The notes under the pieces: model-generated
Told to the model about the DNA's origin: nothing
The model's database searches: none
What the model saw: the letters and a program-made list of their open reading frames with translations, nothing else
In this document: piece by piece, positions 29,675 to 42,301 of the stretch
Layout: the number at the start of each line of letters is the position of its first letter
Numbering within the stretch: the first letter of the stretch is position 1
Made by a program: the position numbers and the translations under genes
DNA from: Rhodobacteraceae bacterium Water-Bin34
GTDB lineage: Bacteria; Pseudomonadota; Alphaproteobacteria; Rhodobacterales; Rhodobacteraceae
NCBI GenBank assembly: GCA_900197625.1
Contig: FZLS01000003.1
Span: forward strand, 1 to 64,000
Reading direction: 5' to 3'
DNA: 64,000 nt

Positions 29675-30949
29675 TTAATCGATACTAAGACCACTTGGTA
29701 CAGATTCTGGGATACCAATACGTTCTGTGGTTTCTCCTGTAAGTGTATCCATAAATAGAACCAAATTATTTATTTCTGCATCTGATAATTTAACCGGTTT
29801 AATATCGATGAAGGAACTTTGTCTAATCATTTCTCTAACGTCTTCCTGAATAATAAAATCATTTTTACTTAAATGTTCAATTTTTGGTAATTTTACAATT
29901 TTCTTATTCCATAGCCCCTTCTCTTTTTTTGGGTTCAAATGATGTTTAATTATACCTTTGATATCTGGATATGCACCATTATGACCATATGGAGCAGAAA
30001 GTTTGATATTTCTTAACATTGGAGTTCTAAATCTATATGCATCTGATAAATCATCTGTTTCGGCCATATGACCTGTATCTCTTGGTATAGGATCAAAAAT
30101 TCTGGTTCTACCCGGGCCAAATGAAGGAAGACCAATTGAGTAAAACTTTTGGTCTGATAGCAATTTTCCATTGTGACAGTCATTACATCTGGCTTTACCA
30201 AAAAACAAATCCATACCTGATTTTTCGGAACTCGTTAAAATTGTTTCATTTCCAGATATAAATTTATCATACCTACTATCATTGGTTTTCCATTCAGATG
30301 ATATAAATGCAGCTAATGCATTAGCAATATCTACTATGTTTATCTGTTTATAATCATCTATGTGTTCATATGAACTAACAAATCTTGTACCATATTCGCT
30401 AATATTTCGCACTCTTTTCGCAATTATTGGCCAAGGAGCATCTATTCGATCATGTGCAGCACCAGCAACATCATTTTCACCGGGATTTCCAGCCATTTCA
30501 AATTGTGAAACAAGTGGAAATATTGCTTGCGCTGCTAGTATAGAATCAAAGCCAATTGGCAACCATTCTTCAGCTGGACTATCAAAAGTGTTTTCATATG
30601 TATCTTTTTTAGATAATCTACCATCATGAAATAAAACATTTATTTCTTTTGATCCTAAATTCCACAAAGCTGTTGAATTCCTTGGTATTCTTTTTTTAAT
30701 TAAATCAGCTCCAACTGTACGTTTTGGGCCAAGGCCTATACCTCCCTCACCTATTCCAAGCGATAATCCGTCGCTAGTGCCATGATCTGGATGGTGACAC
30801 GTTCCACAAGAAATATTTCTATTTCCTGATAAAATTTTATCGTAAAATAGAAGTTGCCCTAGTTGAATTTTATCAGTTGTAAATGTTGGGAAATCATCAT
30901 CAGTTAAGACTTGTGGTAATTTATTAGCTTCAGCTATACCAGAACACAA
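29675..30949 (-). CDS. Di-haem cytochrome c peroxidase/MauG-family protein, start unresolved
   Basis: The protein has two c-type haem sites, CGTCH near residue 48 and CNDCH near residue 250, and family segments such as LGQLLFYDKILSGN and APYGHNGAYPDIKGI. It should be an exported periplasmic enzyme reducing peroxide or modifying a partner protein. The only usable start near the mature protein is TTG at 30949. A good signal-peptide core (LIILILCSGIAEA) begins upstream of that codon and extends past 30965, where the divergent Sel1 gene starts. No in-frame ATG, GTG or TTG exists in that stretch. A rare start codon or a sequence error is therefore possible. Confidence 0.75.
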   Translation of the reverse strand: MCSGIAEANKLPQVLTDDDFPTFTTDKIQLGQLLFYDKILSGNRNISCGTCHHPDHGTSDGLSLGIGEGGIGLGPKRTVGADLIKKRIPRNSTALWNLGSKEINVLFHDGRLSKKDTYENTFDSPAEEWLPIGFDSILAAQAIFPLVSQFEMAGNPGENDVAGAAHDRIDAPWPIIAKRVRNISEYGTRFVSSYEHIDDYKQINIVDIANALAAFISSEWKTNDSRYDKFISGNETILTSSEKSGMDLFFGKARCNDCHNGKLLSDQKFYSIGLPSFGPGRTRIFDPIPRDTGHMAETDDLSDAYRFRTPMLRNIKLSAPYGHNGAYPDIKGIIKHHLNPKKEKGLWNKKIVKLPKIEHLSKNDFIIQEDVREMIRQSSFIDIKPVKLSDAEINNLVLFMDTLTGETTERIGIPESVPSGLSID

Positions 30950-30964
30950 AATTAGGATGATTAA

Positions 30965-31435
30965 ATGCGATATGTATTGATATTTTTTATGATTATTTCC
31001 ACCCCCTGCTATGCGGGTATCGAAAAAGCTCGTGATATGATGGAAAGTGGAAAGTTTACTGAGGCTTACAATGAATTGTTGCCTGCTGCGCGCTCTGGAA
31101 ATGCAGATGCAGAAGAACTTATTGGCGTAATGTACGCAATGGGCCAAGGCGTTAAAAAAGATGATCAAAGAGCGTTTGAATGGTATTTGCGTGCCTCTAT
31201 GAAGGGGCACCCAGGCGCCCAATCTGGTATTGGATGGTACTATGAAGTTGGTCGTGGTGTTGTTGGTATAGATTTGGTTAGATCTTATATGTGGTACACC
31301 CTTAGTGCAATCGGAGGAGACCCCGACGCTGCTATCTCGTTGGAAGAGGTTGTAAAAAAAATGACAAAAGAAGAAATAAATAAAGCTCATATATTGGTCA
31401 ATGATTATAAAGTTTGGATGTATCCATTTAGATAA
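30965..31435 (+). CDS. Secreted Sel1-repeat protein
   Basis: A signal peptide (MRYVLIFFMIISTPCYA) precedes two to three Sel1/TPR-like repeats: ARSGNADAEELIGVMYAMGQG, then a repeat around AFEWYLRASMKGHPGAQ and one around SYMWYTLSAIGGDPDA. Such solenoids bind other proteins in the periplasm. At 156 residues it is a small member. Its start region overlaps the probable signal-peptide region of the divergent peroxidase gene. A strong GC-rich terminator follows 10 bases after the stop. The partner is unknown. Confidence 0.85.
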   Translation: MRYVLIFFMIISTPCYAGIEKARDMMESGKFTEAYNELLPAARSGNADAEELIGVMYAMGQGVKKDDQRAFEWYLRASMKGHPGAQSGIGWYYEVGRGVVGIDLVRSYMWYTLSAIGGDPDAAISLEEVVKKMTKEEINKAHILVNDYKVWMYPFR

Positions 31436-31481: not shown

Positions 31482-32543
31482 TTAATTTAAGTCTGCAGCT
31501 CGATCGCTACCAACGTCAGAGTTTGCTTCACTTACAGCATCAGTCAAAGCAGTAAATATTTCATCACCACGCGTTACGTTGCTTTTAAACCAATCATATA
31601 CTGGTGTTGCAGCTTCTGCAAAAGCAGCTTTTTGTGAAGGTGTTGGAACATATAAGTCTCCACCTCCAGCTACAAAATCTGCATATGCTTGTATTGATTT
31701 ACGCTTAGGTGAAGCAAATGTAGCTTGTTGAAGAGCATAAAAACCATCATTTACAACTGCTCGCATATCTTCTGGCATTGATGTGAAAGTTTTATTAGAC
31801 ATCCACCATAGAGCACCCATATATGCGTGACCATCTAAAGTTACGTATTGAAGACCAGCATCAGGAAATTTCATACCCATAATATCAGTGATACCATTTT
31901 TGGATCCTTCAACTACACCAGTTTGGAACGATGTAAATAACTCAGGCCATGGGATTGGAGTTGGAGAAGCACCTAGAGCTTTAACTAATTCTTGAGGCAG
32001 ATCCGCAACAACAGTTCTTATCTTTAATCCTGCCATATCGCTTGGTTCAGCAACTCTACGACGAGTATTTGCAAAGTTTCTCCAGCCACCTGTATTACCA
32101 ATTGTCATAAGTCGAATTGAGTCGTCAGAATCTTCTAAAGCCATTGAGCGCATTTTACGTGTAAAGTCACCAGATAACACATGTTCTGCTATACGATCAT
32201 CAGCCATTAAGTATGGTAAGTCTAGGACTTGTACATATGGGAAAATGCCTGCAGCTCCACCAGATGTTGAAATATAAACATCTATAGATCCATCAGCTAC
32301 ACCTTGCAGACATTCAGCTCCATTTGAACAAAGTTGCGTACCAATAAATAGCTCAACTTCTATTGCTCCGTTTGAAGCGGCTTCTACGTAGTTTTTAAAT
32401 ACTACAAGGCCATCATAATCTTCATCGTTTTCGTTTGAATTCGCAGTTGCACGTATTTTAAATGTGTCTGCGACAACACCCGTAAACGATGAGCCTGCTA
32501 GAATAGCAGCTATAGTTAAAGTTTTAATTGTTTTTGTGAGCAT
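31482..32543 (-). CDS. dctP: TRAP transporter substrate-binding protein DctP
   Basis: This is the periplasmic solute-binding part of a TRAP transporter. The ATG at 32543 is chosen because GGGAGGAAC lies just upstream and a signal peptide follows (KTLTIAAILAGSSFTGVVA). That gives 353 residues. The conserved Arg that binds the ligand carboxylate or acid group is in GLKIRTVVADLP, and the family block FTSFQTGVVEGSKNG is present. It is the last gene of the operon, after dctQ and dctM. Its neighbours suggest a sulfosugar or its glycoside as ligand; TRAP proteins more often bind carboxylic or sugar acids. Confidence 0.9.
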   Translation of the reverse strand: MLTKTIKTLTIAAILAGSSFTGVVADTFKIRATANSNENDEDYDGLVVFKNYVEAASNGAIEVELFIGTQLCSNGAECLQGVADGSIDVYISTSGGAAGIFPYVQVLDLPYLMADDRIAEHVLSGDFTRKMRSMALEDSDDSIRLMTIGNTGGWRNFANTRRRVAEPSDMAGLKIRTVVADLPQELVKALGASPTPIPWPELFTSFQTGVVEGSKNGITDIMGMKFPDAGLQYVTLDGHAYMGALWWMSNKTFTSMPEDMRAVVNDGFYALQQATFASPKRKSIQAYADFVAGGGDLYVPTPSQKAAFAEAATPVYDWFKSNVTRGDEIFTALTDAVSEANSDVGSDRAADLN

Positions 32544-32565
32544 TTTGTTCCTCCCTAATACTCGT

Positions 32566-33855
32566 TTATTGTACAAAGCCCGTAAGCCTTGGTATGGTCA
32601 TTGAAAGCGCAGGTATATACGTGATTAAAAAAATCACTACGATTTCTACCGCAAGAAATGGTAGTATCGCTTTTGCAATTGCTTCGACGCGCTCGCCCGA
32701 AACTGCAGATGCAACAAACAGAACTAATCCCATAGGTGGTGTAGCCAGTCCAACTGTAAGATTAACACTCATAATAATGGCAAAATGTATCGGATCTATT
32801 CCTAAACCAATAAAGATTGGTCCTAAAATTGGTCCTAGAATAATTATAGCAGGTCCAGCATCCAAAAACATACCAACTATAAAAAGTAAAATATTAATTA
32901 AAAATAATAATAATAATGGATTACTTGTAAGCGTAAGTATAAAAGCTGCTAATTGTTCAGGGGCATGACTAAGGCTGACAACAGTTTTAAATGCCATAGC
33001 AGCACCAACCAAAAGTAACACAACTGAAGATGTTATGCCTGCTCTTGTTATAACACCTGAAAGATCACTTATCTTAAGAGTTCTCAAAACAAATAAGCCA
33101 ATGAATAATGCATATGCTACTGCAACAGCAGCCGCTTCAGTAGGTGTAAATATACCCCCAAGTATACCACCTAATATGATAACAGGCGTTAATAGCGGAA
33201 AAAAGGCTTTTATACTTGCTTGACCTCGTTCAGGCCATGAATATTTATTTGTAGCAACAGGAAAATCATATTTATTTGCCATAAATTTAACCATTAGCAT
33301 TAAGCCTATACCAACCATAGCTCCGGGTATCACGCCTGCTAAGAATAATGCTGCAACACTTTCTCCCATAACATATGCATATATAATCATTATCCCAGAA
33401 GGTGGAATGATTGGCCCAATAACAGAACTTGCTGCGGTGATCGCAGCTGCAAATTTTCTCGTATATCCTTGTTTTTCCATAGCAGGAATTAACATCGACC
33501 CTAACGCAGATGTGTCAGCAACCGCTGATCCTGATAAACCTGCAAAAAGCATAGAAGACAATACATTTACATGTGCTAGCCCTCCCCTCAGATGACCCAT
33601 GAATGCTTGTGAAAATTCCACAAGTCTCATTGTTATTCCACCTCTATTCATTAGTTCGCCAGCTAACATGAAGAATGGAATGGCCATTAACGGAAAGCTA
33701 TCAATCCCATTATATACGTTTCTATATAATAAGGTGATATCTCGTTCTTGGCCGTTTAAATACAGAAGTAGACCCGGTGCAGCCAATAAGCCAAAAAATA
33801 CTGGTAAGCCTATGATTAGAAAAAATAAAAATACTGGTAAAAACCAAATTAACAT
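32566..33855 (-). CDS. dctM: TRAP transporter large permease DctM
   Basis: DctM is the sodium-driven transport subunit, with about 12 membrane segments in 429 residues. Recognisable family blocks include PFFMLAGELMNRGGI, SSMLFAGLSGSAVADTSALG, SSVIGPIIPPSGIMI and LTVGLATPPMGLVLF. It overlaps dctQ by 7 bases upstream and is followed by dctP after 22 bases. It should work with the small subunit and the binding protein of the same operon. Confidence 0.95.
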   Translation of the reverse strand: MLIWFLPVFLFFLIIGLPVFFGLLAAPGLLLYLNGQERDITLLYRNVYNGIDSFPLMAIPFFMLAGELMNRGGITMRLVEFSQAFMGHLRGGLAHVNVLSSMLFAGLSGSAVADTSALGSMLIPAMEKQGYTRKFAAAITAASSVIGPIIPPSGIMIIYAYVMGESVAALFLAGVIPGAMVGIGLMLMVKFMANKYDFPVATNKYSWPERGQASIKAFFPLLTPVIILGGILGGIFTPTEAAAVAVAYALFIGLFVLRTLKISDLSGVITRAGITSSVVLLLVGAAMAFKTVVSLSHAPEQLAAFILTLTSNPLLLLFLINILLFIVGMFLDAGPAIIILGPILGPIFIGLGIDPIHFAIIMSVNLTVGLATPPMGLVLFVASAVSGERVEAIAKAILPFLAVEIVVIFLITYIPALSMTIPRLTGFVQ

Positions 33856-34460
33856 TTAGAAGTCTCCATGCTTGTATCATCATGGATCTTCGGTAACAAA
33901 TTACCTTTACCTAGTTTTAATAATATACTTCTTCCTATTAATTCTAAGTTTACTGATATCAATAATATGCAGCCAACAAATAAAGACATCATCATCCATG
34001 ATCTTGGAATTCTATACCAATTTTGAAAATCTATAGTGATTGGAATATATAAGGATGCTGTTGCAAACCTTCCACCAAAGCCCGTAACTTCTGCATACCC
34101 AATTCGAACAGCTGATATAAGCACTAATAATGATAATAATAAAAGTAGCATTGATAATATAAAATTAATAATATTTGGAATGAATTGAGTTATGAAATCA
34201 ATTGCAACAAACCCACCTCTTCTAAAGGCAGTTGGTGCCATTAACCCAGTCATCCATAACATGCAGAATCTTGCAGCTTCATCTGGCCAGGGAAGTGCAT
34301 TATTCAAAATATATCGGAAAAATACTTGTATTAGAATTGCAATAACCATCAGTATAACAGTTAAAACCCCAAGTCCTCTGCATAATTTTAAAACAAAATT
34401 ATTAATTCGGCTTAAGATTTGCGTTATAACTATTAAGAAAGTCATATTTTGCAATTCCAA
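33849..34460 (-). CDS. dctQ: TRAP transporter small permease DctQ
   Basis: This is the small membrane subunit, 203 residues with four hydrophobic segments. The typical DctQ features are the NNALPWPDEAARFCMLWM block and the RRGGFVAIDF segment after the second helix. M6 is an alternative start. It lies 22 bases after the flavin reductase gene on the same strand, so transporter and enzymes form one transcription unit. Confidence 0.9.
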   Translation of the reverse strand: MELQNMTFLIVITQILSRINNFVLKLCRGLGVLTVILMVIAILIQVFFRYILNNALPWPDEAARFCMLWMTGLMAPTAFRRGGFVAIDFITQFIPNIINFILSMLLLLLSLLVLISAVRIGYAEVTGFGGRFATASLYIPITIDFQNWYRIPRSWMMMSLFVGCILLISVNLELIGRSILLKLGKGNLLPKIHDDTSMETSKC

Positions 34461-34482
34461 CCTGCACTAAATGTAAGCATTT

Positions 34483-35010
34483 TCATTTATTTATCCCTTT
34501 GGGTTTAATTTCTCCAAATTCACCGGAGAAAAAAGATAGTGCATTACCCGTACTTTCAAGAGCGCTTTCTACTTTTCCAATTATAATTTTATGATCGCCT
34601 GCATCATGCATATCATATTTGACACAATGGAATCTTGCTAAACAATTATCAATTATTGGAACGCCTTTACTCGATATACTGTGTGAAAATGTATCAAATG
34701 CTTTCTTGTTTTTAACAAACTCATTACACAAAGCCTGCTGATCAAAATTAAGTACATGAATTGCAAAATAATGTGCTTTTTCAAAATATTTAAATCTTGA
34801 AGATCTCTTATCAGGGGCCCACATGATTAAAGCAGGATTTAGAGATATAGATGAAAAACTGTTTACTGTCATGCCAATATGGCCATCTATGCTGTCGCAT
34901 GAGACTATTGTAACACCTGTTGCAAATCGGCTAAAAGCTTTACGAAGCATTTTTGTATTATCAGAATTAGGCGTGAATTCTGTAAACATATCTATGCCTC
35001 CATCAGCCAT
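34483..35010 (-). CDS. Flavin reductase, likely partner of the SsuD-like monooxygenase (SmoA-like)
   Basis: A 175-residue member of the flavin-reductase-like (HpaC/DIM6) family, which reduces FMN with NAD(P)H. Family features visible are FATGVTIVSCDS, the GMTVNSFSSISLNP block and the late GDHKIIIGKVES segment, where HDAGDH contains the conserved His. Two-component flavin monooxygenases need such a partner, and the monooxygenase sits two genes upstream. Its start overlaps the stop of the aldo/keto reductase gene by one base (TAATG). In the sulfo-SMO pathway this is the SmoA role. Confidence 0.85.
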   Translation of the reverse strand: MADGGIDMFTEFTPNSDNTKMLRKAFSRFATGVTIVSCDSIDGHIGMTVNSFSSISLNPALIMWAPDKRSSRFKYFEKAHYFAIHVLNFDQQALCNEFVKNKKAFDTFSHSISSKGVPIIDNCLARFHCVKYDMHDAGDHKIIIGKVESALESTGNALSFFSGEFGEIKPKGINK

Positions 35011-35900
35011 TATGCTACTTCTCTTCCTAATGCAGCAGTGTATAGTTCAAACCATGTAATTCGATCCATTTTAACTTTAAATGCATCACTAATTTTGGAT
35101 ATTCTATTAATATTATTAGTTCCCATAATTGGAATTATATTAGCTGGGTGTGTCAGTAAAAATGAAATTGCTACAGCTGATCTGTCTACGTTATAATTTG
35201 AAGCAATTTCGTCCATTTTATTGGTTAGCTCATTTTTATTTGTCATCAGCTTACCTCCACCCAAAGGTGACCAGGCCATAATTGGTGAAGCATTTTTTTG
35301 GTGAAATACTACATCTCCATTAGTAAAAGATTCTATAGATTGTAATGATAATTCTATTTGGTTTGTATGAAGTTGGTTACTCATAGAAGATTGTAATAAT
35401 TCCCAGTCGTAAGGCCTGTAATTTGATACACCTACTGATCTCACCTTGCCAGATTTGACTAATTCATCAAGAGCATGACCAGTTTCGTAGTGATCCATAA
35501 ATGGATCAGGTCTATGAATTAAGAGCATGTCTATATGGTCAACATTCATGTTTTTTAATGATGCGTTTACAGATGCATTAATATGTTTTTTTGAGGTATC
35601 ATAATACTTAACTGGAACATCTGAATATTTTCCACATGGTGCAACAATTCCACATTTTGTGACAATTTCAATCTTATTTCTTAGTGCTTTGTTTTCTTTT
35701 AATACTCTACCGAATAGTGCTTCAGCAGAATAATCACCATATATATCAGCTTGATCAAATGTTGTTATACCTTGTTCGAGGCATAAGTTAATTTTATTTA
35801 ATACAGATTTGTTATCACTTTTTTCGCCATCAGCAAGGCGCCACATGCCATAAATGATTTGACTGAAATCTAAAGTTTCATTTATTTTAATCCGTTCCAT
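35010..35900 (-). CDS. Aldo/keto reductase (possible 6-oxo-glucose reductase, SmoB-like)
   Basis: A TIM-barrel NADPH reductase of 296 residues. The AKR tetrad is visible: Asp in FDQADIYGDYS, the Tyr of that segment, Lys in IVTKCGI, and His in MLLIHRPDP. The cofactor loop near the end (PIMGTNNINRISKISDAF) is typical of the YdhF-like subgroup. It is sandwiched by one-base overlaps between the monooxygenase and the flavin reductase. In sulfo-SMO clusters an AKR (SmoB) reduces the 6-oxo-glucose left by desulfonation to glucose; that role is inferred from the neighbours. Confidence 0.82.
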   Translation of the reverse strand: MERIKINETLDFSQIIYGMWRLADGEKSDNKSVLNKINLCLEQGITTFDQADIYGDYSAEALFGRVLKENKALRNKIEIVTKCGIVAPCGKYSDVPVKYYDTSKKHINASVNASLKNMNVDHIDMLLIHRPDPFMDHYETGHALDELVKSGKVRSVGVSNYRPYDWELLQSSMSNQLHTNQIELSLQSIESFTNGDVVFHQKNASPIMAWSPLGGGKLMTNKNELTNKMDEIASNYNVDRSAVAISFLLTHPANIIPIMGTNNINRISKISDAFKVKMDRITWFELYTAALGREVA

Positions 35901-37054
35901 TACTTTCTAATTCCTGTGCCTAAAGGTGTTGAAGGAGTTTTATTTGGAACACGTCCATAAACACTTGGTAATGAACATGTATTTAATTTTGGTAGAACTT
36001 TTGATCCAAAATGTTTTGCTTCATCAATATGCGGGTAACCTGAGAAAATAAAAGCTCTTATTCCCATCTTTTCATATTCATTTATTTTGGATAATACTTG
36101 ATCTGCTGATCCTACTAATGCTGCGCCACAGCCAGAGCGGGCTCGTCCTACACCTGTCCAAAGGTTTTGCTCAATATAGCCATATTTATCAGCTAATTCC
36201 CTATTTTTAGATTGATGAGATACACCTAAAGATGTTGAGTCTAATGCTCTATCTCGTATCATCTTGCCATACTCATCATCTAATTTTGAAGTGATATATT
36301 CCGCATATTCCTTTGCCTCTATTTCAGTATCACGTACTATAACATGTACCCTGAGGCCATAATCTAAAGTTCTATTATATTTCTGTGCAACATCATTAAC
36401 CGCTCTCATTCGATCAGCTAGATCTTCTTTTTTTTCCGGCCACATTAAATATACATCACAATGTTCTCCGCATAGCTCCAAGGCAGATGGTGAGTAACCT
36501 CCAAAATACAGTAATGGACCATTAGTTTGGTAAGGCACTACTGGTGAAGTATCTATATTTTTAAAATTATATATTTTACCTTCGTGGTTAATGTGATTTT
36601 TTGTCCAAGCTTGTTTTAAAATTTCAACAACTTCTCTAGACCTTTGGTACCGATATGTACTCTCTTCTGTTTGACCAGGGAAATCAGAACTAATTATGTT
36701 TACTGTTAACCTACCTTTAAGCATGTGATCTAATGTAGCAATTGTTCTAGCGAGCATTATTGGTTGCATTTCGCCGCATCTAACAGCTGCTAGTAAATTG
36801 ATATCAGATGTTATAGGTGCACATCCCGCAACAAAAGATAAAGTATCTTGGCCGACTTGGTATGATGAAGGGCAAAGAATATTATTAAATCCTTGCTCTT
36901 CTGATACCGTAACAATTTTAGAACAATGCTCCCAGCTTGATCTTAATTTTCCATCTGGCACACCAAGAAATTGATAATCATCTGAGCAGAGTGCTGAAAA
37001 CCACGAAACTTCACTTGCATTTAAATTTGATGATTTAATAGGTACGACCGTCAT
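35900..37054 (-). CDS. SsuD-like FMNH2-dependent sulfonate monooxygenase (possible sulfoquinovose monooxygenase SmoC)
   Basis: A luciferase-like monooxygenase of 384 residues from the ATG at 37054; an in-frame TTG upstream would add 13. Sulfonate-pocket segments of SsuD are conserved: LRVHVIVRD (Arg and His), RARSGCGAALVGS (phosphate or sulfonate Arg) and FIFSGYPHIDEA (Tyr and His). Enzymes of this type oxidise R-CH2-SO3 to an aldehyde and sulfite. Coupling with an AKR and a flavin reductase is the known sulfo-SMO arrangement for sulfoquinovose. SsuD acting on linear alkanesulfonates is the alternative, but the usual ssuABC transporter is absent. Confidence 0.83.
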   Translation of the reverse strand: MTVVPIKSSNLNASEVSWFSALCSDDYQFLGVPDGKLRSSWEHCSKIVTVSEEQGFNNILCPSSYQVGQDTLSFVAGCAPITSDINLLAAVRCGEMQPIMLARTIATLDHMLKGRLTVNIISSDFPGQTEESTYRYQRSREVVEILKQAWTKNHINHEGKIYNFKNIDTSPVVPYQTNGPLLYFGGYSPSALELCGEHCDVYLMWPEKKEDLADRMRAVNDVAQKYNRTLDYGLRVHVIVRDTEIEAKEYAEYITSKLDDEYGKMIRDRALDSTSLGVSHQSKNRELADKYGYIEQNLWTGVGRARSGCGAALVGSADQVLSKINEYEKMGIRAFIFSGYPHIDEAKHFGSKVLPKLNTCSLPSVYGRVPNKTPSTPLGTGIRK

Positions 37055-37081
37055 TAATTTATCTTTCAATGAATTATAAGT

Positions 37082-37124
37082 ATTGATTAACAAATCAATT
37101 TATGTAAATCAATGGTGTATCAAT
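37082..37124. promoter_or_regulatory. Candidate operator cluster between the monooxygenase and gntR
   Basis: A perfect inverted repeat ATTGATT-AACA-AATCAAT at 37082-37099 is followed by two more copies of ATCAAT at 37108-37113 and 37119-37124. They lie in the short divergent promoter region, a place where a GntR/HutC regulator would control both arms. Binding is inferred. Confidence 0.45.
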
Positions 37125-37143
37125 TTATTCTTTGAGATTACAA

Positions 37144-37854
37144 GTGAACACTTCAAACCAAAATTTTCATAATTTACCAAAATACATACAGATATCAGAA
37201 TTATTAATCCGTGATATCGGTTCTGGAAGATTAATTGATGGTGAAAGATTACCTCCAGAAAGAGTGCTAGCAAAAACACTTAATGTCACTGTAACTACAT
37301 TGCGTAAATCACTGAAAGTACTTGTAGAAAAAGGAATGCTTAATCAAGTTCATGGATCTGGAAATTATGTATGTCATGGTGCCAAAGATGACAGTGTATA
37401 CGCAATGTTCAGACTTGAGTTATTGAAAGGCGGTGGGCTTCCAAGTGCAAAATTTATTGATATAAAACAGATGGAAAAGCCAGCAAATTTACCAATATTT
37501 GGGACATCTAATATAGCAACTAGAATGCGTAGAATTAGATATCTTAATAAAACAATTATAGGGCTTGAGGAAATTTGGTTGGATTTGGATGAAGGTAAAG
37601 TAAAAAAAAATCAAGTTTCGGATTCGCTTTATCATTATTATCGTACTCGTCTCGGATTCTGGATAACGCATGCAGAAGATAGGGTAAGTATAAATGCCCT
37701 GCCCGATTGGACTCCAAATGATTTTTCTTTGCCTGTTGGAACTATTACTGGATTTATAGAACGTTTTAGTTGGTCAGAGAAATCAAAACCTATTGAATAT
37801 TCAAAAACATGGTTTGATACAAATGCTGCACAGTATGTGCAAAGATTAAAATAG
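37144..37854 (+). CDS. GntR/HutC-family regulator
   Basis: The N-terminal winged helix-turn-helix (LIDGERLPPERVLAKTLNV; TTLRKSLKVLVEKGML) is joined to a UTRA ligand-binding domain. The GTG at 37144 is preferred over a TTG 12 bases earlier, giving 236 residues. UTRA domains bind small sugars or phosphorylated compounds. It is divergent from the monooxygenase operon and 8 bases before a Gfo/Idh gene, so it probably controls the whole island in response to the imported compound or a metabolite. Confidence 0.88.
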   Translation: MNTSNQNFHNLPKYIQISELLIRDIGSGRLIDGERLPPERVLAKTLNVTVTTLRKSLKVLVEKGMLNQVHGSGNYVCHGAKDDSVYAMFRLELLKGGGLPSAKFIDIKQMEKPANLPIFGTSNIATRMRRIRYLNKTIIGLEEIWLDLDEGKVKKNQVSDSLYHYYRTRLGFWITHAEDRVSINALPDWTPNDFSLPVGTITGFIERFSWSEKSKPIEYSKTWFDTNAAQYVQRLK

Positions 37855-37862
37855 GGAATAAT

Positions 37863-38981
37863 ATGACAAAATTAACACATTATGGAATTATTGGTTGTGG
37901 TATGATGGGGCAAGAACATCTCAAAAATATTGCATTGCTTGAAAATACGGTGATAGAGGCAATATATGAACCTGATGCGGAAATGGCAAAAAAAGCATCT
38001 AAGTTTGCTCCAAAAGCAATTTTTACAAATAGTGTAGATGAGTTATTAGATATTAACGATATTGATTGTCTCGTAATCGTAAGCCCAAATTTTTGTCACA
38101 TTGATCAATTGATGCAGATATTAGATAAAAGACATATTCCAATTTTAGTTGAAAAACCACTCTTTACGAATGAAAATGATATACCAAAATTAAAGAAATT
38201 TAGAGATAAATACAAATCTCATGTTTGGGTTGCTATGGAGTATCGATATATGCCTCCAATTGAAGCGCTTAGTGAAAAAATTATACAATCGACTGGAGAG
38301 ATCAATATGCTCACAATCAAAGAGCATCGATTTCCCTTTTTAGAAAAAGTAAATGATTGGAATAGATTCAATGAATTTTCAGGTGGAACATTAGTAGAAA
38401 AATGCTGTCATTTTTTTGACTTAATGAGGCTACTAATAAAGTCTGAACCAATACGAATAATGGCTAGTGCAGGGCAATCAGTTAATCATTTAGATGAAAC
38501 ATATGACGGCAAGACTCCAGATATAATCGATAATGCTTATGTTATAGTTGATTTTAAAAATAATGTTAGAGCTATGCTTGAGTTATGTATGTTTGCAGAA
38601 GGGTCAAGGTATCAAGAAGAAATTTCTGCTGTTGGGCCAATCGGTAAAATAGAAGCATTGGTGCCAGGGCCAGGGAGATTTTGGCCTAAGCATCTAGGCC
38701 CTGCCCCAACACCAAAATTAATAATTAGCCCAAGAAATCCTCAAGGACCAATACATGAAGATATAATTGTAGATGAAAAATTATTAAGTGCCGGTGATCA
38801 TAATGGATCCACCTTTTATCAACATCAAAAGTTTCTTAAATTAGTTAGAGGAGACTTAAAGCTACCTGAAGTTTCACTTCTTGATGGATGGAAAGCTGTT
38901 GCAATGGGATTAGCAGCACAAAAAAGTGCAAAAACTGGTTTAGCAATAGATTTACAAGATGAAACTAATTATCCAATTTAG
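37863..38981 (+). CDS. Gfo/Idh/MocA-family NAD-dependent protein (possible NAD-dependent sulfoquinovosidase)
   Basis: The 372 residues begin with a Rossmann motif GIIGCGMMGQEH. The family EKPL motif (ILVEKPLFT) and a C-terminal alpha/beta domain with VAMEYRYMPPIEAL and GGTLVEKCCHFFDLMR follow. Most relatives are sugar dehydrogenases. A recently described branch (GH188, SqgA) uses tightly bound NAD to hydrolyse sulfoquinovosyl glycerol and occurs in sulfoquinovose gene clusters. Given its neighbours that role is attractive, since no GH31 sulfoquinovosidase is present, but plain dehydrogenase activity is not excluded. The gene is followed by a terminator. Confidence 0.8.
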   Translation: MTKLTHYGIIGCGMMGQEHLKNIALLENTVIEAIYEPDAEMAKKASKFAPKAIFTNSVDELLDINDIDCLVIVSPNFCHIDQLMQILDKRHIPILVEKPLFTNENDIPKLKKFRDKYKSHVWVAMEYRYMPPIEALSEKIIQSTGEINMLTIKEHRFPFLEKVNDWNRFNEFSGGTLVEKCCHFFDLMRLLIKSEPIRIMASAGQSVNHLDETYDGKTPDIIDNAYVIVDFKNNVRAMLELCMFAEGSRYQEEISAVGPIGKIEALVPGPGRFWPKHLGPAPTPKLIISPRNPQGPIHEDIIVDEKLLSAGDHNGSTFYQHQKFLKLVRGDLKLPEVSLLDGWKAVAMGLAAQKSAKTGLAIDLQDETNYPI

Positions 38982-39049: not shown

Positions 39050-39073
39050 CGGATGATTTCATCCGCTATTTTT
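39050..39073 (+). terminator. Rho-independent terminator after the Gfo/Idh gene
   Basis: The stem CGGATG / CATCCG with an ATTT loop is followed by CTATTTTT. It separates the catabolic island from the photolyase cassette, whose first ATG is at 39102. Confidence 0.75.
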
Positions 39074-39101
39074 GATACAATTAGTATATAAGGTATGTGA
39101 A

Positions 39102-40637
39102 ATGATATTAAGGTTAATATTGGGTGATCAACTAAGTGAAAATATATCTAGTTTAAGAAACGCAAATAAAGCAGATGATCATATTTTAATCTGTGAAGTT
39201 AAATCTGAAGCAACATATGTTAGGCACCATAAGAAAAAAATAGCTTTTTTATTCTCAGCTATGAGACACTTTTCTAAATCTCTTGAAGATTTAAATTTTA
39301 ATTTAACCTACATAAAATATGATGATGTAAATAATACTGGAAGCCTTTTTGGTGAAGTCAAAAAGAAGATAGATAACAATAATTTCAAAAAAATTGTAAT
39401 AACTATGCCAAACGAATTTAGACTCTATTCAGAAATTATAGAATGGGAGAATAAATTAAATATTCCTGTTGAAATAAAGGAAGATGATAGGTTTCTTTGC
39501 ACTACAGAAGATTTCAATACTTGGGCAAGTGAAAGGAAACAACTCCGAATGGAGTATTTCTATCGGAATATGAGACGAAAATATGATATCTTAATGGACG
39601 GCGATAATCCCATTGGCGGGCAATGGAATTTTGATAGTGAAAACAGAAAGCCACCTAAAGACGGCCTGAATGTACCAAAAAATTATGCTATAAAGCCTGA
39701 TAAGATTACAACTGATGTTTTAAATCTAGTTGAAAAAAACTTTAAGGATCATTTTGGAGATTTGAAGCCATTTTACTTTGCAGTAACCCGGCAACAAGCT
39801 TTGATAGTATTAGATGAGTTCATAGATAAAAGATTATCAATGTTTGGTGATTTTCAAGATGCTATGATTGAAGGTGAACCTTGGATGTTTCATAGCCATA
39901 TAAGCTTCTATTTGAATTGTGGCTTACTAACACCCTTAGAGTGCATAAAGGCTGCAGAGAATGCTTATTATGACAATAGAGCCCCCCTAAATGCCGTTGA
40001 AGGCTTTGTAAGGCAAATTTTAGGCTGGAGGGAGTACATAAGGGGAGTATATTGGTACAAGATGCCAGATTATAAAGAAGAAAATTATTTGGAAGCATCA
40101 AGAAAGTTGCCTGAATTTTATTGGACAGGTCAAACAAATATGAATTGTTTAAAACAATGTATTAATGAAACAAAAGAAAATTCATATTCTCATCACATAC
40201 AAAGATTAATGGTGCTTGGTAATTTTGTATTATTGGCAGGTATAAATCCTGATGAAGTTCATAATTGGTATCTTGCGGTTTATTCAGATGCTTATGAGTG
40301 GGTTGAATTGCCAAATGTTACTGGGATGATTTTATATGCAGATGGTGGCATCTTGGCATCAAAGCCCTATGCTGCGAGTGGTGCATATATAAATAGAATG
40401 TCAAACTATTGTAAAAATTGTCATTACAAAGTGAATTTAAAAGATGGAAAAGATGCCTGCCCATTTAATTATTTATACTGGGATTTTTTAATAAGAAATG
40501 AGAATAAACTAAGAAATAATCCAAGAATGGGATTAATTTATAGAAATTTAGATAAAATGAATTCAGATAAGTATGAAACCATTAAATCTGATAGTAATAT
40601 TTTTCTTAAACATATTGAAAACAATGAAAAAGTCTAA
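39102..40637 (+). CDS. FeS-containing bacterial photolyase/cryptochrome (PhrB/CryPro type)
   Basis: A light-driven DNA-repair flavoprotein of the FeS-BCP class, whose characterised members repair (6-4) photoproducts. The start at 39102 has AAGG upstream and gives [16 protein letters not shown], the usual N-terminus, and 511 residues. Cysteines at 349, 437, 440 and 453 match the four [4Fe-4S] ligands of Agrobacterium PhrB almost position for position. The C-terminal half carries the FAD site ([29 protein letters not shown]). It overlaps a DUF2256 gene by 14 bases. Confidence 0.92.
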
Positions 40638-40758
40638 TTTACCTTCTAAAAATTGTGCAAAATGCGATCGTCCTTTTACCTGGCGTAAAAAATGGAAAAA
40701 TGTATGGAATGAAGTTAAATATTGCTCTGAGAGATGCAAACGTGAAAAGAACTCTTGA
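40624..40758 (+). CDS. DUF2256 small zinc-ribbon-like protein
   Basis: A 44-residue protein with cysteines C11, C14, C34 and C38 (C-x2-C...C-x3-C) around a tryptophan-rich basic stretch ([12 protein letters not shown]). This is the DUF2256 pattern, a probable metal-binding domain of unknown function often found beside photolyases. The ATG at 40624 is inside the end of the photolyase gene, and the stop lies 17 bases into the next photolyase reading frame. This tight nesting argues that all three proteins are made together. Confidence 0.82.
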
Positions 40759-42301
40759 TAAAATTAATATTGTTTGGTTCAAACGTGACCTCAGGACGAA
40801 TGATCACGCACCTTTGTTAAATGCGTCAAAACAAAAATTTCCTTTACTACCAATTTATATAGTAGAGCCAGAATACTGGAGAACTGAGTGCAGTTCACGT
40901 AAGCATTGGCATTTTATTCATGACTGTCTTGTTGATTTAGATAATGAAATGAATAATTTGGGTCAGCCATTAATTATACAAGTAGGTGATGTTGTAGATG
41001 TTTTTCGTAAAATCAATAAGAAATTTAATATAGAAAATATATATTCACACGAAGAAACTGGAAATAAATGGACATACGAACGCGATAAAAGAGTTCAAGT
41101 TTGGTGCATACAGAATGGAATAGTTCAGAAGGAATATCCAACAAATGGAGTAGTTCGAAAACTTTCGTCACGAAATGAATGGTCAAAAATTCGCAATAAA
41201 CGAATGTCAGAAACTATTTACCCAAAACCAAAATATATCAATCCAATACAAAAAATAATTCATACAAAATTACCTAGTAAGGATGATGAGTTATTTGGTG
41301 CTCCCATTAATGGAAGGGTTCAAAAAGGTGGAAGAATAGAAGCACTAAATGATTTGAAGAGTTTTTTAAATGAAAGATCTCGCAATTATCTATATCATAT
41401 ATCTGCACCTGGAAAATCAGAAAAATATTGTTCGCGATTATCAGCACATTTAACTTGGGGCACTTTATCAGTAAGGGAAATTGTTCAATCAGTCAAAAAG
41501 CGAAGATTACAATTGTCTGTTGATCATAAAAAAATTTATGGCAGAAATTTGTCAGCATTTAATTCAAGATTAGCTTGGCGTTGCCACTTCATACAGAAAC
41601 TTGAAATGCAACCAAGCATTGAAACACATTGTATGCATAAGGCTTTCGAAAATTTACGCATGATTGATGCTTCCGACGAAAAATTCATTGCATGGTCTTC
41701 TGGGCAAACTGGTTATCCTTTTATTGATGCGTGTATGCGAAATTTAATATCTGAAGGATGGCTCACATTTAGAATGAGAGCAATGTTGGTTAGTTTTGCA
41801 AGTTACCAGCTTTGGATTGATTGGCGTTTATCCGGAAATCATTTGGCAAAGTTATTTACTGATTTTGAACCGGGCATTCATTATAGCCAACTTCAGATGC
41901 AATCCGGCGTAACTGGCATTAATGCAATGAGAGTTTATAATCCAATAAAACAATCTTATGAGCATGATCCAAGTGGTATTTTCATAAAAAAATGGGTTCC
42001 TGAGTTAAAACATCTCCCCGTACAATTTATACATGAGCCATGGAAGTATCAAAATAATTTGTTAGAAAACTCTAATATTTTAATTGGACGCGATTATCCA
42101 TTCCCAATCGTAGATCATGAAATAGAAGCACGAAATGCTAAAAAGAAGATCTATGATGTGAGAAAAGCTAAAATGTTTAAAAGTGAATCACTTATAGTTT
42201 TTGAAAAACATGGTAGTAGAAAATCCAAATCAACGCATAAATCTAGGAATAAGGTACAGTCCAAAACTAAGTTTCAAGATAAACAACTCAGGCTTTTTTG
42301 A
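40742..42301 (+). CDS. Cryptochrome/photolyase family protein
   Basis: The GTG at 40742 is chosen as start because it gives [20 protein letters not shown], the conserved N-terminus, with GAGAGA upstream. That gives 519 residues. The antenna domain is followed by the FAD-binding domain: [64 protein letters not shown] and [11 protein letters not shown]. The C-terminus is lysine-rich and serine-rich, possibly a DNA-contact tail. It may repair cyclobutane dimers, complementing the FeS enzyme, or act as a light sensor. It overlaps the DUF2256 gene. Confidence 0.9.

Follow-up and report, generated by a model that had tools for sequence, protein, structure and literature searches.

Sulfoquinovose (SQ) is a sulfur-bearing sugar from algae and plants, and in Agrobacterium tumefaciens the hydrolase of the sulfoquinovose monooxygenase (sulfo-SMO) pathway for its use belongs to glycoside hydrolase family GH31. 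By one estimate, about ten billion tons of SQ are made each year (PMC10755693). The sulfo-SMO pathway, also called sulfo-ASMO, comprises the monooxygenase SmoC, the aldo-keto reductase (AKR) SmoB and a flavin reductase, and releases sulfite and glucose (PMC12890257); a SmoB-type AKR adjoining SmoC serves as a criterion for such clusters (PMC13372026). The A. tumefaciens pathway uses an ATP-binding cassette (ABC) importer for the glycerol glycoside of SQ, sulfoquinovosyl-glycerol (SQGro) (PMC9594981), and in the marine Roseobacter clade GH188 is near-universal in sulfo-SMO clusters (PMC10755693). Here we describe an eight-gene sulfo-SMO cluster of Rhodobacteraceae bacterium Water-Bin34 (genome of 3.6 Mb in 274 contigs), located in a 64,000-nucleotide part of contig FZLS01000003.1. 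This whole stretch is called the window, and all coordinates are positions in it.

The cluster is typical of roseobacter sulfo-SMO clusters that combine GH188 with a tripartite ATP-independent periplasmic (TRAP) importer. It is like the systems of A. tumefaciens and Novosphingobium aromaticivorans in SmoC, SmoB and the flavin reductase, and unlike that of A. tumefaciens in having the TRAP genes dctQMP instead of the SQGro ABC importer, and GH188 instead of GH31. Compared with the Roseobacter sulfo-SMO clusters with GH188, as far as the description in PMC10755693 goes, nothing of substance sets it apart. It very probably constitutes an aerobic SQ utilization unit of two divergent transcripts, with a predicted route to glucose and sulfite. 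From the kinship of SmoC, SmoB and GH188, the conserved residues, the gene order, a conserved upstream element and the co-occurrence of TRAP and GH188 genes, all read from sequence, we infer the substrates, direction, regulation and TRAP cargo of the route.

Six of the genes, smoC to dctP, lie on the minus strand, and two, gntR and the GH188 gene, on the plus strand. All eight proteins exceed Pfam cut-offs (Bac_luciferase, Aldo_ket_red, Flavin_Reduct, DctQ, DctM, DctP, GntR with UTRA, and GFO_IDH_MocA). A sequence-only reading had described these open reading frames (ORFs), with one-base overlaps, dctQMP and a divergent GntR and Gfo/Idh pair, and the ORF list and Pfam matches bear out every element, including the overlaps at 35900 (monooxygenase/AKR) and 35010 (AKR/flavin reductase). 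Among the matches listed, the closest loci are those of an Amylibacter metagenome-assembled genome (91%) and of HTCC2255 (90%). HTCC2255 has the same eight genes in identical order, TRAP included, in a collinear alignment of 18,031 columns at 83.7% identity, and the same genes in the same order occur on annotated plasmids of Ruegeria TM1040, Roseivivax, Paracoccus and Rhizobium SL42. Because of this collinearity and the shared order in other genomes, the cluster is not a chance arrangement.

The enzymes and the predicted route

The putative SmoC-type, reduced flavin mononucleotide (FMNH2)-dependent SQ monooxygenase is encoded at 35900..37054 (minus strand, from an ATG; the frame stays open to a TTG at 37093). 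Against the PDB, this luciferase-like protein scores 672 bits with 7olf (74% identity) and 665 bits with 7oh2 (73%), which we take to be SmoC structures, their PDB names being different, compared with 181 bits for MsuD (7jv3) and 171 bits for SsuD (1m41), each 31% identical. In a quick LG+G4 tree of 102 rows (99 different), which has long branches among its outer rows, the protein falls into a clade of 95 rows together with 7olf, 7oh2 and roseobacter proteins (SH-like approximate likelihood ratio support 99), with SsuD and MsuD outside; SfnG is kept apart by scores only. Two paralogs from the same genome have very long branches in this tree and support no claim. There are 119 alignment columns that are invariant or nearly so within the SmoC clade and differ in SsuD and MsuD. 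The motifs LRVHVIVRD and FIFSGYPH, which the sequence-only reading had pointed out, are present in the translation.

The sulfonate site of MsuD consists of W195, R225, R296 and S/A299 (PMC8234197). Equivalents of the first three (W205, R235 and R306) are kept in all 95 rows of the SmoC clade, and at the fourth position the protein has C309, a cysteine likewise found in 95/95 rows, 7olf and 7oh2 included. It is very improbable, and ruled out by the scores and the tree, that the locus serves sulfur scavenging by an SsuD-type alkanesulfonate monooxygenase with an AKR adjoining by chance, even though NCBIfam gives an FMNH2-dependent alkanesulfonate monooxygenase as best model (at 232.5 bits, short of the cut-off of 518.2), for SsuD and MsuD stand in a separate clade and the gene shares its unit with a SmoB-type AKR and GH188.

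The AKR, a predicted 6-dehydroglucose reductase of SmoB type (35010..35900, minus strand), scores 365 bits with both 7bby and 7bbz, presumably SmoB structures under different PDB names, and 194 bits with the next solved relative. On that identification, a SmoB-type AKR directly adjoins SmoC at this locus. The flavin reductase (34483..35010, minus strand; Pfam Flavin_Reduct) is assigned as the probable SmoA by its position. The view that monooxygenase, AKR and flavin reductase form a sulfo-SMO core is therefore upheld, by scores and tree for SmoC and by score for SmoB, and the two comparisons that had been proposed as its tests placed the monooxygenase in the SmoC clade, away from SsuD, MsuD and SfnG, and the AKR with SmoB.

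The plus-strand Gfo/Idh gene at 37863..38981 encodes the hydrolase. Its protein gave phmmer scores of 509 bits with 8zn9 and 347 bits with 8qc2 and 8qc3, and 55 bits with the next structure. The entries 8QC2, 8QC3, 8QC5, 8QC6 and 8QC8 are SqgA proteins, the founding members of GH188, and eight residues of ArSqgA hold SQ and its sulfonate: K107, Y136, R166, L170, K172, E189, H193 and H321 (PMC10755693). All eight are matched in order by K98, Y127, R156, L160, K162, E179, H183 and H313 of the present protein, which has them in common with the SqgA proteins of Arthrobacter and Flavobacterium, and they are kept in 98/98 GH188 rows, 11 of which come from regions lacking SmoC. Arthrobacter SqgA, 47% identical to the protein, stands in a sulfoglycolytic Embden–Meyerhof–Parnas (sulfo-EMP) setting (PMC10755693). 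Judged by scores and residues, the gene is a GH188 NAD+-dependent sulfoquinovosidase of SqgA type. The sequence-only reading was right that the cluster has neither an ABC importer nor GH31, and a search of the whole genome found no GH31 sulfoquinovosidase either (the same search was positive in 6/14 control genomes). It erred in taking the hydrolysis part to be missing, as this part is the Gfo/Idh neighbour that it had itself listed. Nor is the different hydrolysis part new, since GH188 is already described as nearly universal in Roseobacter sulfo-SMO clusters (PMC10755693).

The route would run as follows. DctPQM would bring in SQ or SQGro, and GH188 would free SQ through a transient NAD+-dependent oxidation at C3. 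With FMNH2 supplied by the flavin reductase, and with O2, SmoC would split the C–S bond to give sulfite and 6-dehydroglucose, which SmoB would reduce to glucose. The GntR protein would repress the genes from the operator-like element until a sugar effector binds. As a possible sulfite exporter the TauE family was considered; it has seven matches in the genome and is too unspecific to assign.

How widespread the cluster is was surveyed in two ways. The first used the best 80 of at least 579 relatives, a sample that leans towards near kin; three of the collected loci (L114, L116 and L117) duplicate the DNA of L022, L036 and L062, and the row counts of trees and alignments include such repeats. 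SmoB is present in 79/80 loci and the flavin reductase in 74/80 (of the six without it, L014 is truncated by a contig end). With at least 2.2 kb of upstream sequence, GntR occurs in 76/76 loci and GH188 in 74/76, the exceptions being L020 and L065; with at least 6 kb downstream, dctQ, dctM and dctP each occur in 51/73 and an ABC receptor of the type in L118 in 3/73. ABC genes also adjoin the cluster in Rhizobium WSM4643, whose monooxygenase is 50% identical. The second survey covered 390 genomes of the order, with thresholds of 1e-150 for SmoC, 1e-110 for DctP and 1e-90 for GH188, and found SmoC in 194, DctP in 155 and GH188 in 215. The description of the locus as a compact marine version of the pathway thus stands as regards a TRAP importer in place of the ABC importer; it does not stand as regards rarity, this being a common roseobacter layout, or the hydrolase, which was known.

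The TRAP genes and their probable cargo

The TRAP genes follow on the minus strand: the small permease dctQ (33849..34460), the large permease dctM (32566..33855; TIGR00786 at 423 bits, over the cut-off) and the solute receptor dctP (31482..32546, or to 32576 with a TTG start), a probable binder of SQ or SQGro. In the 390 genomes, DctP was found in 154/216 with SmoC or GH188 and in 1/174 with neither. It occurs together with SmoC in 132 genomes and without SmoC in 23, of which 22 have GH188; conversely, DctP is present in each of the 22 genomes that have GH188 but lack SmoC.

For 12 of the 23 genomes with DctP and no SmoC, the region was fetched. A GH188 gene (47-54% identical to the present one) lies within 8 kb of dctP in 11/12, the exception being L107, and near dctP the same 11 hold, by similarity, homologues of PfkB kinase, LacD/DeoC-type aldolase and isomerase. 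Family libraries (Pfam and NCBIfam) were run on one of these 11 regions, L100, the other ten being characterized by similarity, and gave a PfkB kinase, a LacD/DeoC-type aldolase and an aldose epimerase. They also gave an isomerase, for which the sole NCBIfam match is to the sulfoquinovose isomerase model, at 252 bits and so short of the cut-off of 700. From these families L100 looks like a sulfo-EMP-type cluster. We note that L100-L106 and L108-L111 are clusters of the same order in which GH188 and the TRAP genes described here stand with PfkB, the aldolase and a sulfoquinovose-isomerase-like protein, with no SmoC. Separately, in L107, from genome G296, a close DctP stands beside sugar-type ABC genes.

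The importer also changes within the SmoC clade. In the SmoC clusters L112 and L118 an ABC importer (receptor, two permeases and ATPase) occupies the TRAP position according to Pfam, and by similarity the same holds for L062, L071, L072, L117 and L119. With three importer labels mapped on the SmoC tree, a minimum of 12 changes is needed, compared with 24.1 when the labels are shuffled, and for TRAP 5 changes are required by well-supported branches. The ABC label of the HIMB11-type loci L082 and L083 in this mapping is doubtful, because the transport genes there stand with an alpha-amylase, those of the first without a Pfam match. Because the importer type varies within the clade, the importer does not define the pathway.

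DctP is a likely importer component because its presence follows that of SmoC or GH188 across genomes and because GH188 lies close to it in 11/12 SmoC-less regions. On the most economical reading, the TRAP system likely carries SQ or SQGro. Alternatively, the enzymes could be those of the sulfo-SMO pathway and the TRAP system could import some other solute, SQ entering elsewhere. TRAP receptors mostly take carboxylates, which would suit such a solute, as would the 62/194 SmoC genomes without this DctP at the threshold, and G296, which has DctP and at the thresholds neither SmoC nor GH188. We nevertheless consider it unlikely. DctP recurs near GH188 with isomerase, kinase and aldolase homologues in the SmoC-less regions, SQ is the theme shared by both types of cluster that bear it, and in L112 and L118 ABC importers replace it. 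In addition, IseP (8t9t), the receptor for the sulfonate isethionate, ranks second among the solved relatives of DctP by profile, though eleventh by single sequence; it matches DctP in fold, with 21% identity in the fold alignment and another substrate. The AlphaFold model of DctP has a mean predicted local distance difference test (pLDDT) score of 72.8, with segments below 50 at 72-84 and 200-225, and because of these values no claim about the ligand is drawn from it.

Several observations, besides those two on DctP, weigh against the interpretation of the cluster as an SQ unit with its own TRAP importer. Neither this TRAP system nor an L118-type ABC receptor was found in 19/73 loci with at least 6 kb downstream, and one SmoC genome, G246, has no GH188. 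The entries 7olf, 7oh2, 7bby and 7bbz, here taken to be SmoC and SmoB, bear other names in the PDB, and the best NCBIfam match of the flavin reductase is FerA (177.5 bits, below the cut-off of 260). A genome search for a PF03601 exporter found none, although one stands beside the cluster in some relatives. Lastly, Glu163 of ArSqgA has been placed at Tyr226 of AmGH109A (PMC10755693), and the numbering offset that fits the eight other residues puts a valine at 163, a mismatch with the printed Glu163; residue 164 in ArSqgA numbering is glutamate in 98/98 rows (E154 in the present protein).

DctP and DctM are closer to their HTCC2255 counterparts than the rest of the cluster is, at 98-99% identity, compared with 82-90% for the other six proteins. 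Recent transfer of dctMP was considered for this and is ruled out by the DNA, which differs by 10-15% (identity 90% for dctP and 85% for dctM). Protein identity of 98-99% over DNA identity of 85-90% indicates purifying selection rather than recent transfer, and points to stronger purifying selection on dctP and dctM than on the enzymes.

An operator-like element upstream of smoC

Between smoC and the gene for the GntR/UTRA regulator (37132..37854, plus strand; Pfam GntR and UTRA), which is probably a local repressor, lies a conserved operator-like element, AAATTGATACACCATTGATTTACAT, at 37102..37126 (minus strand). A 25-base element near AAATTGATACACCATTGATCTACAT was found upstream of smoC in 93/93 regions (90 distinct) with at most 6 mismatches, compared with 0.0 per set in shuffled upstream regions; since these sequences share ancestry, the 93 do not count as independent. 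Within the element, a direct repeat of ATTGAT, 11 bases apart, is nearly invariant. TRAP- and ABC-type smoC loci have the element in common, whereas in 11 SmoC-less loci even the best match differs at 8 to 11 positions. The 18-base core (37108-37125) occurs exactly once in the genome; a further 11 places match it with 2 or 3 mismatches, compared with 2 places for a reversed control pattern. We take the element to be the probable GntR operator. Its second ATTGAT may belong to a -35 box that is followed by a TG motif. The element is a testable candidate operator.

Neighbouring genes and the meaning of the TRAP tie

Two ORFs downstream of dctP are kept in both sulfo-SMO and isomerase-type SQ clusters. 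One, on the plus strand at 30965..31435, encodes a Sel1-repeat protein (Pfam Sel1) with a signal-peptide-like start, rich in conserved Trp and Tyr and 69-96% identical in 17 loci. The other, on the minus strand at about 29675..30997, encodes a MauG-like di-haem protein whose true start is unsure; its long frame overlaps the Sel1 gene on the opposite strand. The MauG-like protein reaches the Pfam CCP_MauG cut-off and is below that of every NCBIfam model matched (TIGR03981, 257.6 against 340 bits; MbnH, 126.1 against 362.85; MauG, 107.9 against 443.85). Its AlphaFold model has a mean pLDDT of 55.5, which is too poor for fold matches to be counted. On the other side of the cluster, beside the GH188 gene, two adjoining ORFs at 39072-42301 appear photolyase-family-like by eye.

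Where a TRAP locus has 8.5 kb of sequence available, the MauG-like gene follows dctP in 33/41 cases; it is in none of the non-TRAP loci among the best 80. A close form, defined by at least 50% identity, occurs in at least 126 of the 390 genomes, and DctP in 123 of those 126; this cut was set after the list had been viewed (identities are 51-50% as far as 475 bits and 48% at the next score, 436). Linkage was counted over 150 of the 155 DctP places and the 126 MauG-like places listed. Among the places listed, the MauG-like gene lies within 10 kb downstream of dctP, on the same strand, in 113/121 genomes, and is beside dctP in 19/21 SmoC-less and 94/129 SmoC genomes.

There are two scenarios for this pair. 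The more probable, and one to which we give a modest preference, is that the genes are mere neighbours that travel with the dctQMP block and have an independent task. In five inspected regions (L123-L127) the pair is separate from dctP, the MauG-like gene is absent from 8 of the 41 TRAP loci that extend far enough (8.5 kb), three genomes without DctP hold the MauG-like form, there without a Sel1 match (L120-L122), and none of the known steps of SQ use requires such a protein. Against this, genomes in which the pair is unlinked still hold dctP, DctP is present almost wherever the close MauG-like form occurs (123 of 126 genomes), and the adjacency is retained across two different cluster types. 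The second, more tentative scenario is that the Sel1 and MauG-like proteins are dedicated periplasmic partners of a TRAP system that brings SQ or SQGro into roseobacters. MauG and MbnH oxidize Trp or Tyr residues of a partner, and by analogy the MauG-like enzyme may oxidize Trp or Tyr of the Sel1 protein or of DctP; alternatively, its task may be to clear peroxide while uptake proceeds. In the portions of the literature searched, no paper was found that, by its title and the opening of its abstract, links sulfoquinovose and cytochrome c peroxidase. Beside the probable SQ importer genes, these two conserved ORFs stand as candidates for periplasmic partners.

Finally, we note what the TRAP genes would mean for SQ use in this group. 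No account of TRAP import of SQ was found in the literature searched, outside which an earlier description may exist, and no description of SQ import by marine bacteria was found there, which is where the interest of the TRAP tie lies. One TRAP family is tied to SQ use across two unlike types of cluster. If this tie holds, the DctP receptor would be a marker of SQ uptake in metagenomes.

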